Assembly (NCBI RefSeq): GCF_009909195.1 | Contig: NZ_JAAAMU010000012.1 | Span: 62,001 to 126,000 of the forward strand | Direction of reading: 5' to 3' | DNA: 64,000 nucleotides | DNA from: Paenibacillus sacheonensis | GTDB taxonomy: Bacteria > Bacillota > Bacilli > Paenibacillales > Paenibacillaceae | Shown: positions 7,044 through 10,700 of the stretch, in pieces | Position numbering within the stretch: position 1 is the first letter of the stretch | Layout: each line of letters opens with the position of its first letter | Position numbers and translations under genes: made by a program | Notes under the pieces: generated by a model | Told to the model about the DNA's origin: nothing | Seen by the model: only the letters and a program-made list of their open reading frames with translations | Databases searched by the model: none

Positions 7044-7070
7044 AATAAAAAAACCGGGTTTCCCCGGTTG
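7044..7070 (-). terminator. Rho-independent terminator after the RsbU_N kinase
   Basis: On the minus strand AACCGGGG/CCCGGTT forms a short GC-rich stem (7052-7069) followed by seven T residues. It ends the RsbT-like/kinase unit. Confidence 0.85.
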
Positions 7071-7109: not shown

Positions 7110-8486
7110 TTATTCAGCTAATGGCAAATAGATATTGAACTCCGTGCCTTCGCCCGTATTGCTGGATACGCGAATCTTGCCGCCATGGTTCCGTACGATG
7201 CGATAACTGACCGACAGACCTAAGCCTGTACCCGCCGCCTTCGTCGTATAGAACGGATCGAACAGCTTGGATTTGGTCACGAGATCCATTCCGTTGCCAT
7301 TATCCCGGATCGTAATCTCGGCATCGCGCCCGTCGCGCCTTGTGATGATATCGATTCTTCCTCCCCGCTCGCCCTTCAGATCGCCGATGGCATCCATCGC
7401 ATTACGGATAATGTTCAGCACGACCTGCTTGACCTGCTTCACGTCGATGGATACCGCGAGTTCCTCGTCGTAGGTCTCGAAATGAATTTGGCACCCCTTC
7501 ATCAACGCCTCGCTGTCCGACAAGAGGATGACCTCCTTCAGCAGGGAATTGATCTTCACTTTCTGCTTCATCGGCGCGGATGGCTTGGAAGAATTCAGAA
7601 ATTCATAGATAATATCGTTCGCGCGGTCGATTTCCGTTAAAATAATACGCGAGTATTCTTCCTTCCCAAGCTGCGTCAGATGGGGGTTCAACAATTGGAT
7701 AAACCCGCGGATCGAAGTGAGCGGATTGCGGATTTCATGCGCGATCGAAGCCGCGATCTTGCCGAGCATGGCAAGCTTATCGTTCTGATACGCGGACTGC
7801 TCGATTTGCTTATACTCCGTCACGTCCTTCACGCTGAACAAATAATCGCCCTCGAGCTGATCCCCGTATGTAACCGTTACTAGCAGCGTGCGCCCGTCTT
7901 CATCCACGAACTCCATGTACCGGCTGCGCCGGAGGAAGACTTCCTTATACAACCTCAAAATGACCCGTTTCGTGCTTTTTCGCAGCCTGCTGTGAGACAA
8001 AATATTAATTAAATTACAGCCGATCAGCGTTGTCCGGGGAATATCGAGCAGCTTGGCCATTTGAACGTTGATGAACGACAGCATGCCCTCTCCGTCAAAG
8101 ATCGCGATGCCGCTGTCCATATGCTGCAGCACGTTTTCGTATTTGTTCTTGACCATCCGGAACGAACGGTGCGAACGAAGCATCATATCTCTCATCTCGC
8201 TGAAACGCTGCTCCGAAGTTTGTTCCGGCTGCAAGCGGAAGCGAAACGCCACCATAAGTTCGATCAAAAAAATAAAAGAACGGCTATACAGCCGCAGCGC
8301 TTCATCCGAATCGACGTTGGCAACCAGCATCTGCATGGATTCTTCATGGACGGCGATAATATCTTCCGGATGAATATTTTCCAGCAGTTTTCCAATTTCC
8401 GTTGCTTCAAATAACGATGCTTCACTGCCGCTGCGAATGTACTCAGCCAGCGCAGGGAAGTAACGCATACGTATTGCCTGCATCAT
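7110..8486 (-). CDS. PAS histidine kinase with RsbU-type N-terminal domain
   Basis: A 458-aa soluble sensor kinase with no membrane segment. Residues 1-88 match the RsbU N-terminal domain, the part of the B. subtilis stress phosphatase that binds RsbT (compare RYFPALAEYI, PEDIIAVHEES, FLIELMVAF). A coiled linker leads to a PAS domain (about 115-222). The HisKA box AHEIRNP carries the phospho-acceptor H250. The ATPase domain has its N box (NIIRNAMDAIGD) and both glycine boxes (DNGNGMD, GTGLGLS), so the kinase should be active. HisKA and ATPase resemble KinB/KinE-type sporulation kinases. It starts directly after the stop of the RsbT-like gene, and no response regulator is adjacent. Fusing RsbU_N to a kinase implies partner-protein control. 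Confidence 0.88.
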   Translation of the reverse strand: MMQAIRMRYFPALAEYIRSGSEASLFEATEIGKLLENIHPEDIIAVHEESMQMLVANVDSDEALRLYSRSFIFLIELMVAFRFRLQPEQTSEQRFSEMRDMMLRSHRSFRMVKNKYENVLQHMDSGIAIFDGEGMLSFINVQMAKLLDIPRTTLIGCNLINILSHSRLRKSTKRVILRLYKEVFLRRSRYMEFVDEDGRTLLVTVTYGDQLEGDYLFSVKDVTEYKQIEQSAYQNDKLAMLGKIAASIAHEIRNPLTSIRGFIQLLNPHLTQLGKEEYSRIILTEIDRANDIIYEFLNSSKPSAPMKQKVKINSLLKEVILLSDSEALMKGCQIHFETYDEELAVSIDVKQVKQVVLNIIRNAMDAIGDLKGERGGRIDIITRRDGRDAEITIRDNGNGMDLVTKSKLFDPFYTTKAAGTGLGLSVSYRIVRNHGGKIRVSSNTGEGTEFNIYLPLAE

Positions 8487-8885
8487 TTACTCCTCTCCTG
8501 CCGCGTAAATCGGTGAATCGACGCGCAATGGAGCGTGAACCCATTTTTGGAACGTAATCATGGTTCCGCGCGATTGGTCGTGACTGAGCTCCAGGGAGTC
8601 CGTCAATTCCTTCATCCATTGCAAATGAATTCGACTTGGCCCCGTGAAATGATCGAATAATCTGACTTCTATCCCACTAGCTGGATCTCCTTTGCAGAGA
8701 CTTACTGGACGGATCATCATATGCCCTTTCGCCGAGATTGAAACTAGCTTCTGGGCAAGCTCTGATATGGTATATGCGATGATGGTCTGATCAACAAGGC
8801 TGAATCCAATCGCTTTGGCGATTTCCCTTCCTCTTTGACGTGCCATGATTGCGTCCGACGTTTCCCAAATATGAAACATTTCCAC
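8487..8885 (-). CDS. Degenerate RsbT-like GHKL protein
   Basis: A 132-aa protein whose first half follows RsbT closely: MARQRGREIAKAIGF, VDQTIIAYT and the N-box-like ISELAQKLV (residues 39-47). The region that should hold the glycine box (DQGPGI in RsbT) reads FDHFTGPS (about 77-84). The ATP lid and second glycine box are missing, so the protein is shorter there before the terminal strand TMITFQKWV. It is therefore unlikely to bind ATP or act as a kinase. A GTG start at 8885, 12 bases from GGAGG, is favoured over an ATG two codons in. Its stop abuts the RsbU_N kinase start, making a two-gene unit; a docking role is inferred. Confidence 0.75.
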   Translation of the reverse strand: MEMFHIWETSDAIMARQRGREIAKAIGFSLVDQTIIAYTISELAQKLVSISAKGHMMIRPVSLCKGDPASGIEVRLFDHFTGPSRIHLQWMKELTDSLELSHDQSRGTMITFQKWVHAPLRVDSPIYAAGEE

Positions 8886-8951
8886 GTTGTAAGCTCGCCT
8901 CCACCCTTAAAAAATGTTCAAGCAAATTCCGAGTTGAGATCGCTTACAGTA

Positions 8952-8981
8952 ATCATAGTTATTTATCCTAATTATTGTCAA
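8952..8981 (-). promoter_or_regulatory. SigA-type promoter for the RsbT-like/kinase unit
   Basis: TTGACA (8976-8981) and TATGAT (8952-8957) are separated by 18 bases on the minus strand, about 67 bases upstream of the GTG start. Confidence 0.7.
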
Positions 8982-9061: not shown

Positions 9062-9097
9062 CGAAAAACCAAAGGAAAAGGCGCTGAAATCAGCGCC
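9062..9097 (-). terminator. Terminator overlapping the rsgI stop codon
   Basis: GGCGCT/AGCGCC hairpin (9080-9097) followed on the minus strand by TTTTCCTTTGGTTTTT. The rsgI stop codon (9090-9092) lies in the hairpin loop/stem, so the gene and its terminator overlap. Confidence 0.75.
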
Positions 9098-10700
9098 CTC
9101 TCAAGTTATCCGAGTCATTATTCGCTCGATCGCTTCCGCCCGAGCCTTTGCGATTGCTGTCATCGTTTCCGTTATTCATGCCGTTGTCATTGCTCTTTCT
9201 CGTGTCTTTCCCTTTGTCCTCGTTTGCGCTGCCGCGATTTTGATCGTTGTTTCTACTTTTATCTTTATCGTTGTCCCTGCTGCTGGCGGAACCCTTGTTC
9301 TTACTGGTGCCTTTGCTGTTTATATTGTTGTTATCCTTGCTGGTATCCTCGCGCTTGTCCTTATCCTGATCTCGCGTATCCGAAAACATATTTCCGGTGC
9401 TTGAACCGGCATGCATGCCGACCATTGCGCCGCTGCCTTGGATAACGCCGCTAGGGCGGCTGTCAGAAGCTTTTTTCGCCTCTTCGCCGCCGCCTTTTAC
9501 TTTGCTGCCCGAATCCTTGGAAGGATTGGAGCCGATATGGGATTGCTGATGAGAAGGTGCTTTTGAAGGCGGTTTATCATTATCGTCCTTCTTCTGACCA
9601 CCTTTGCTTACGCTGTCATGACCTCCGCCATTATTGCCCGGGGAATGCTCCATGACATTAATGAAGCCGCCCTGCTGCAAGATTCGGCCGCTATCGGATT
9701 CGCCGTTGGTGCCGCGGCCATCATCCTTATTTCCTTTATGCGCGCCATGCTTCTCCTGTTCGTGCTTGACCAGCGCTTCGAGCTGCTTCTTCTGCTTCTC
9801 CAGCTGCGCTTCTTTCTCCGCTTCCTTCGATGCATCCGACTTGGCCGGCTGCGGCTTGAGCGTCTGTTGTTTAACCGGCGCGGAAGCGGATGGGCCGGAA
9901 TTCTTCGCTTCGTTATCTTCGCTATCGCGACCGTTCATGATCGCCGCAACGCCGCCCATCTTCTTCGCCGCTTGATGGATGGATTCTTTCTTCAAGTTAT
10001 CGATGGAAATCCGGTAGCCTTGCTCCTTCGCCATCAGGTAGAACGCCATTTTACCGGAAGATACGCCTTCACGCTTCGCTTCCTCGCGCACTTCCTTCGG
10101 CGCGGACAACGTGGTCACTTCGACCTGCAGCTTCCGGCCCTTGTCGGTCTTGGCGAGCGACTTGCGCACGGCCGAGTCCATATGCGCAGTGAGGTTGATT
10201 TCCTCCGCCGGCTTCATAACGTCCTGGACGGCTACGCTCGTAATCACGACGTCGCCTTCGCCGCTGTTCAAGTACGGACCTGCGCTGATCCGGTCCATGA
10301 TGGCCTCGGTAACGGTCTGCAGCGGAAGCCCTTTATATTTCAAGTCCTTCGTTACTTTCTCGCCATCGACATTAATCGGCCTCAGCTCTTCTACCTGCTC
10401 ATCCTTGTTGATCCCAAGCTCGATACTCGGATTGACATCCATCGTTAAATAAGCGACGACGGAGGATGGCTTCGAGAATTGCTGTGCAAGGAGAGGGGCG
10501 AATAGTACGAGCACGATCGCTGCTGCGCCGGCGCTGAAACTGTACAGCTTGCGCGGCCGCTGCATCCGCCTTTGCTCCGAGAAGGTGAATTCTTCGCCGA
10601 TCTCGGGCTTGAGCGCAGTTCGCACTTTACGGAATTGACCGTCCGGCATCATTACGATGACGTGTTTGCTGCCAGTTTCCATTACGATTCCACGGCTCAT
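9090..10700 (-). CDS. rsgI: Anti-sigma-I factor RsgI, long disordered C-terminus
   Basis: A 536-aa membrane protein. Residues 1-50 form the cytoplasmic RsgI N-terminal domain (RGIVMETGSKHVIVM), which binds SigI. A single membrane helix spans about 53-73. The extracellular part begins with the conserved VVAYLTMDVNPSIELGIN region (about 83-100), followed by a globular domain to about residue 255. From about 290 to the end it is low-complexity and rich in Ser, Asn, Asp, Lys and Gly, with no carbohydrate-binding module. It overlaps sigI by four bases (ATGA), as expected for a translationally coupled sigma/anti-sigma pair. The signal it senses is unknown. Confidence 0.9.
   Translation of the reverse strand: MSRGIVMETGSKHVIVMMPDGQFRKVRTALKPEIGEEFTFSEQRRMQRPRKLYSFSAGAAAIVLVLFAPLLAQQFSKPSSVVAYLTMDVNPSIELGINKDEQVEELRPINVDGEKVTKDLKYKGLPLQTVTEAIMDRISAGPYLNSGEGDVVITSVAVQDVMKPAEEINLTAHMDSAVRKSLAKTDKGRKLQVEVTTLSAPKEVREEAKREGVSSGKMAFYLMAKEQGYRISIDNLKKESIHQAAKKMGGVAAIMNGRDSEDNEAKNSGPSASAPVKQQTLKPQPAKSDASKEAEKEAQLEKQKKQLEALVKHEQEKHGAHKGNKDDGRGTNGESDSGRILQQGGFINVMEHSPGNNGGGHDSVSKGGQKKDDNDKPPSKAPSHQQSHIGSNPSKDSGSKVKGGGEEAKKASDSRPSGVIQGSGAMVGMHAGSSTGNMFSDTRDQDKDKREDTSKDNNNINSKGTSKNKGSASSRDNDKDKSRNNDQNRGSANEDKGKDTRKSNDNGMNNGNDDSNRKGSGGSDRANNDSDNLRGR

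Follow-up and report, generated by a model that had tools for sequence, protein, structure and literature searches.

A degenerate RsbT homolog encoded with an RsbU_N histidine kinase in Paenibacillaceae, the probable reduced end of a stressosome-to-kinase module

The window is the whole 64,000-nucleotide stretch of the Paenibacillus sacheonensis genome that was analyzed, and all window coordinates given here refer to features on its minus strand. Two genes on the same strand abut there with a gap of 0 nucleotides, the small gene first. The small gene (8487..8885, GTG start) encodes a 132-aa protein that RsbT homology and alignment identify as RsbT-derived (hereafter T, in this case a degenerate T that has lost the ATP boxes), and the second gene (7110..8486) encodes a 458-aa histidine kinase, identified from its reading frame and Pfam matches, with the domain order RsbU_N-PAS-HisKA-HATPase_c. 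The kinase may start at its second Met, where most of its relatives begin. The Shine-Dalgarno motif of the small gene, GGAGG, was read from the sequence (8898..8902), and the same motif precedes T in most of the T-encoding relatives that were examined. The ribosome-binding site (RBS) of the kinase was read within the final codons of the small gene (8490..8498), which encode AAGEE, and this RBS accounts for the conservation of the C-terminal peptide in T. An RBS-like stretch is also found ahead of the kinase in many relatives that lack T. The T of P. nasutitermitis (L018, L080) ends eight codons early and keeps the RBS part, and the kinase frame of P. cisolokensis (L082, L019) ends early at 424 aa, perhaps through a frameshift or an assembly error. 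A sigma-70-type promoter, TTGACA-N18-TATGAT, is predicted for the pair (8952..8981; 11 of 12 consensus matches), and terminator-like hairpins are present in the sequence at the end of rsgI (9075..9102) and after the kinase (7052..7069). The neighbors, named by reading their sequences, are presumably sigI-rsgI upstream and genes for an aminopeptidase and an MFS protein downstream; no response regulator gene adjoining the kinase was found when the neighborhood was read by eye.

The original prediction placed an RsbU-type docking domain at the N terminus of a PAS histidine kinase with intact catalytic boxes, and profile searches bear out both parts. Kinase residues 8-81 (8244..8465) match the Pfam RsbU_N family PF08673 with 49.5 bits (cut-off 25.5; E 4.8e-13), and residues 1-98 match four Bacillus subtilis RsbU N-terminal chains in a search of PDB sequences (1w53, 2j6y, 2j6z, and 2j70; E 5.7e-6 to 1.9e-5). 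The domains that follow are all above their Pfam cut-offs: PAS (aa 114-229, 7800..8147; PF12860 and PF00989), HisKA (aa 241-302, 7581..7766; PF00512, E 2.8e-14), and HATPase_c (aa 348-457, 7116..7445; PF02518, E 2.3e-25), and on visual inspection the H, N, G1, F, and G2 boxes appear intact. The published RsbT-interface residues of RsbU, E24, Y28, I74, and I78, correspond to E22, F26, I75, and V79 of the kinase, two being identical and two conservative changes. Between RsbU_N and PAS lies a linker (aa 82-113, 8148..8243), with a helix at kinase residues 91-117 in the AlphaFold2 (AF2) model, which is the counterpart of the RsbU linker described in PMC12143880. A profile search of the genome found no second RsbU_N above the cut-off; one weak RsbU_N-like match elsewhere (E 0.12) falls below it.

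Sequence searches with the small protein alone returned nothing significant in Pfam, NCBIfam, or PDB, and a candidate ZrgA assignment was rejected as a chance match (13.6 bits for the window's protein, below the cut-off of 27.4; 9 of 24 members at E ≤0.1, the best 0.0041). BLAST aligned the small protein with an intact RsbT encoded in an rsbRSTX operon at an E value of 1.1e-18 and 44% identity, and profile-profile comparison of degenerate T with this intact T (hhalign) gave a probability of 99.8% and an E value of 2e-28, which, together with the abutting genes and the kinase RBS inside the small gene, confirms the prediction of a coupled, RsbT-like neighbor. A profile built from relatives of the small protein likewise did not retrieve RsbW or SpoIIAB from PDB. 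The predicted replacement of the glycine box and absence of the ATP lid were also upheld: FDHFTGPS stands in place of DxGxG, the N-box Asn is Lys, and the lid is deleted. The N-box Asn, the first G1 Gly, and the lid are absent from all 22 aligned degenerate T proteins, and a motif check found the N-box and lid losses in T of all 24 named T loci. ATP binding by the small protein has therefore probably been lost, judging from these motifs. The N-box Glu is retained in 22/22 of the aligned proteins, the G1 Asp in 18/22, and the second G1 Gly in 19/22, so the protein may still bind nucleotides weakly. Both docking arginines (RsbT R19 and R23) are retained in all 22, and the RsbT N24 position is E or D in 21 of the 22 and likewise in the intact T proteins aligned; these docking residues carry what we take to be their B. 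subtilis numbering. The 22 degenerate T proteins form one clade (support 100/99), in which His55, His79, and Trp90 are near-invariant. These three residues are absent from the aligned intact T proteins and are candidates for a possible new surface or ligand site.

The predicted fold of the small protein is that of the GHKL anti-sigma/switch-kinase proteins, with RsbW and SpoIIAB as the best matches. An AF2 model of the small protein fused to the kinase formed both domains with a pTM of 0.49, and an interface is therefore not demonstrated; structure prediction thus failed to provide the confident complex that docking as originally predicted would call for. RsbT D92 contacts the RsbU linker (PMC12143880), and this position lies inside the deleted lid, so activation cannot proceed exactly as in RsbU.

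The conserved pairing expected from the original prediction was observed from the side of T and not from the side of the kinase. T, degenerate or intact, was detected in 24 of 59 genomes of relatives, in all 24 beside an RsbU_N kinase by comparison of coordinates; in G038 and G046, rsbX sits between T and the kinase. A T profile at E 1e-9 matched 18 of 392 genomes of the order, a set overlapping the first, with an adjoining RsbU_N kinase in 18/18; scoring covered the top ten candidates of each genome. Eighteen of the 22 genomes of the window's genus have T. RsbU_N itself was matched at E 0.01 in 32 of the 59 genomes (30 above the cut-off) and above the cut-off in 53 of the 392. The named survey comprises the best 80 of 184 confirmed loci, and among these 80 there are 24 with degenerate T, 1 full module, and 55 kinases without T. 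Nine of the 55 had no RsbU_N match and no sigI or rsgI matched nearby, and these kinases may be paralogs. An rsbT profile match of 21 bits (L077, position 1) was dropped because assignment of a state required 50 bits.

Four states of the locus were found behind sigI-rsgI: rsbR-rsbS-rsbT-rsbX-kinase, intact rsbT-kinase, degenerate T-kinase as in the window, and the kinase alone. The full arrangement (sigI, rsgI, rsbR, rsbS, intact rsbT, rsbX, and an RsbU_N-PAS kinase) is encoded by G038 and G046, from another family of the same order, both of which by eye also carry rsbV-rsbW-sigB-rsbU elsewhere. An MFS gene like that of the window was matched after the kinase in G046 and not in G038, and an aminopeptidase was matched in neither stretch. 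In G124, intact rsbT lies directly ahead of the kinase, rsbR, rsbS, and rsbX were not matched at the locus, and the sole RsbS-like match in the genome at E 0.1 was a 518-aa open frame (E 3e-6). The window locus encodes no RsbR, RsbS, or RsbX, and RsbS was not matched in its genome at E 0.01. Stressosome-type control redirected to a phosphorelay, as originally proposed, is thus supported as ancestry, given the rsbR-S-T-X genes before the kinase in G038 and G046, and not as the present state.

The aminopeptidase gene accompanies 24/24 named T loci and 39/46 T-less loci. The promoter pattern precedes T in 19 of the 23 T loci checked (L104 lay outside the set) and lies ∼70-190 bases ahead of the kinase in 45 of the 46 loci without T, with 0.8 expected in shuffled sequences and 0 in a control stretch; a search ahead of the intact T of G124 did not find it, and the pattern before rsbR in G038 and G046 differs. 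The bases before many T-less kinases still resemble the AAGEE/RBS codons, and T was therefore probably deleted between promoter and RBS. The order of events along the reductive series would follow from this comparison of states: the kinase trees were quick and their root was not inferred (the first omitted 17 of 80 kinases, and the second had 67 rows after 16 of 81 were removed by hand to thin the set), and long branches make the exact placement of the rsbRSTX and G124 kinases unsure.

The evolution of RsbU_N was compared with and without T on a single tree topology, derived from the PAS and kinase regions of 72 sequences, with RsbU_N branch lengths expressed relative to PAS or to the kinase core. 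The RsbU_N/PAS ratio was 0.55 on 44 T branches versus 2.22 on 85 T-less branches, the RsbU_N/kinase core ratio was 0.55 versus 1.54 on the same branches, and 12 mixed branches gave 0.97 and 0.99, respectively. The rate of RsbU_N change relative to PAS is about four times as high where T is missing. Mann-Whitney tests gave p values of 2e-8 against PAS and 4e-4 against the kinase core, on branches that are not fully independent; only in these tests were branches of summed length <0.02 omitted (34 and 68, then 37 and 73 were used). By clade, named by hand from trees in which two T groups do not fall on a single side of any branch, RsbU_N/PAS was 0.49-0.90 in all five T groups and 1.78-4.33 in five of the seven T-less clades, whereas the other two, recent losses in two species and one species, had ratios of 0.72 and 0.27 and no relaxed RsbU_N. 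One T group had an RsbU_N/HK ratio of 1.67. Pairwise bins agree, except for the closest pairs, in which RsbU_N/HK is lower without T (0.79 versus 0.99 with T). E, F/Y, I, and V occupy the positions of RsbU E24, Y28, I74, and I78 in 25, 25, 23, and 25 of 25 rows with T and in 31, 24, 12, and 30 of 46 rows without it; the rows without T have diverged more on the whole, which gives the normalized rates more weight than these counts. The single rsbRSTX kinase aligned has an Asp and no aromatic residue at the Y28 position. Since the 46 named T-less loci keep an alignable domain, RsbU_N may also have a T-independent role. Constraint on RsbU_N that tracks T is the best evidence that the two proteins may function jointly, and, with the conserved docking residues, relaxation of RsbU_N after T loss suggests that the small protein binds RsbU_N directly.

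Degenerate T is under purifying selection and is a maintained protein: among 153 pairs from 18 same-genus genomes, the 25 closest had dN/dS of 0.06-0.21, and the median pN/pS over all pairs was 0.27 for T, 0.11 for the kinase, and 0.08 for the RsbU_N part of the kinase. Those dN/dS values, the invariant docking arginines, and the tracking of T by RsbU_N constraint make it unlikely that the small gene is a remnant that keeps the kinase RBS and translational coupling while its protein has no function, although a remnant would explain AAGEE conservation through the RBS, would fit the T-less lineages in which the promoter immediately precedes the kinase RBS, and would accommodate the shortened T of P. 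nasutitermitis. It is still less likely that the small protein is an anti-sigma-like factor, for example for the neighboring SigI, instead of a kinase partner. The anti-sigma factors RsbW and SpoIIAB are its best fold matches, and sigI-rsgI lies ahead of T in 24/24 named T loci, but the protein descends from RsbT by sequence, T has its own promoter-like site behind an rsgI that ends in a terminator-like hairpin, T was found only with an RsbU_N kinase, and 38/46 T-less loci have sigI-rsgI without it; moreover, SigI already has a known anti-sigma factor in RsgI. The slimmest chance is given to control of the kinase RsbU_N by an RsbT or stressosome encoded elsewhere, with the small protein as a competitor. 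The genome does contain other partner-switching genes (rsbV-rsbW-sigB-like genes at L259 and a short HATPase beside STAS at L260), but BLAST with intact RsbT matched no other RsbT at E 0.01, nor was RsbS matched, blanks that are weak evidence of limited reach because the RsbT search missed RsbW, and on visual inspection the three short HATPase_c_2 frames above the cut-off appear to be RsbW, SpoIIAB, and an RsbW-like protein encoded next to a STAS gene. The latter region (L260:2959-5196) encodes the short HATPase_c_2 protein, the STAS protein, and a 523-aa frame that is GAF-like in its first 180 residues, perhaps a further partner-switching set.

A different question is where the kinase sends its signal if docking occurs as proposed. 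The suggested Spo0F/Spo0A output derives solely from similarity to sporulation kinases: among three PDB kinases, the phosphoacceptor region (DHp) is nearer to KinB (32/69 identities) than to ZraS (26/71) or the Thermotoga kinase 3a0r (28/69), weak evidence by which Spo0F/Spo0A would be at most slightly favored over a REC-PP2C/SigB-like branch. The latter, an RsbY-like route through an orphan REC-PP2C protein to a SigB-like factor, is somewhat unlikely yet deserves to be taken seriously. In the window's genome, L259:3131-7602 holds rsbV-rsbW, a SigB-like gene, and, ∼1.5 kb away on the other strand, a REC-PP2C gene (PF00072 and PF07228), by analogy an RsbY-like layout that makes phosphotransfer to the SigB-like factor possible; no other RsbU_N above the cut-off is present in the genome, the ancestral input was a stressosome, and Bacillus cereus RsbK-RsbY works in this way according to PMC9912610. 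The sigma factor of this rsbV-rsbW operon scores below the SigB and SigBFG cut-offs, and an initial reading that the genome has no SigB was dropped because the operon is present. Elsewhere, in G041, G053, and G039 (L200:2984-4898, L201:4014-5949, and L202:3512-5528), a gene whose product has RsbT-type ATP boxes lies ahead of one for a HisKA-HATPase_c protein with a C-terminal RsbR-like STAS domain, an architecture confirmed by Pfam for L200; this may be a further way of linking partner switching to a histidine kinase.

On balance, the pair is probably the reduced end of a stressosome-to-kinase module, in which T has been kept as an ATP-independent docking subunit of the kinase. The two genes would be a self-contained operon derived from an rsbR-rsbS-rsbT-rsbX module that targeted an RsbU_N histidine kinase; in this lineage, RsbR, RsbS, and RsbX would have been lost, and RsbT would have lost its ATP site and lid and kept its RsbU_N-docking helix. 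Coproduced with the kinase, the small protein most likely binds the RsbU_N dimer with no need of ATP, and when bound would set the state of the linker and PAS coiled coil and hence autokinase activity, whether the effect is activating or inhibiting. A bolder reading, which we hold more tentatively and put somewhat below even odds, is that RsbT became an obligate nucleotide-independent subunit of a histidine kinase, a pseudo-switch-kinase replacing the stressosome, whose His55/His79/Trp90 surface may take the signal directly, with every step of the conversion alive today and the series ending when the partner disappears and the orphaned docking domain drifts.

RsbT phosphorylates stressosome proteins. 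It also docks on its target and activates it, as described in PMC12143880. Evolution seems to have dropped the phosphorylation job and kept docking, on a new type of target. The pair would offer a test of whether docking alone can control a histidine kinase via a coiled-coil linker, control through docking and linker being suggested by the modular-toolkit proposal in PMC12143880, and the four living states trace, step by step, the possible reduction of a large sensory complex to a two-gene switch. Moorella thermoacetica has an intact RsbT and a stressosome. There, as cited in PMC12143880, RsbU_N is likewise joined to another output domain under RsbT control, although that output is a GGDEF diguanylate cyclase. 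The B. subtilis RsbT-RsbU pair, as presented in PMC12143880, shares with the locus the RsbU_N domain on the target, the RsbT homolog as partner, the docking arginines, and the helical effector linker, whereas here the effector is a PAS histidine kinase and not a PP2C phosphatase, the partner lacks the ATP boxes and lid, and RsbS was not matched in the genome. B. cereus RsbK-RsbY likewise uses a histidine kinase as stress input, but RsbK is a hybrid kinase, and the opening lines of the abstracts do not mention RsbU_N or an RsbT relative. For Proteobacteria, PMC9237108 and PMC12143880 describe rsbRSTX modules with downstream RsbU_N signaling proteins, including histidine kinases: there, too, a histidine kinase coupled with rsbT carries RsbU_N, but those modules are described with stressosome genes, whereas a degenerate T stands by itself here, in Paenibacillaceae, beside sigI-rsgI. 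A literature search of titles and abstract openings found no publication on a degenerate RsbT or on this Paenibacillaceae locus; RsbU_N kinases with rsbT are already published for Proteobacteria, and apparently new are the partner without ATP boxes, its conservation, and the series of reductive states.
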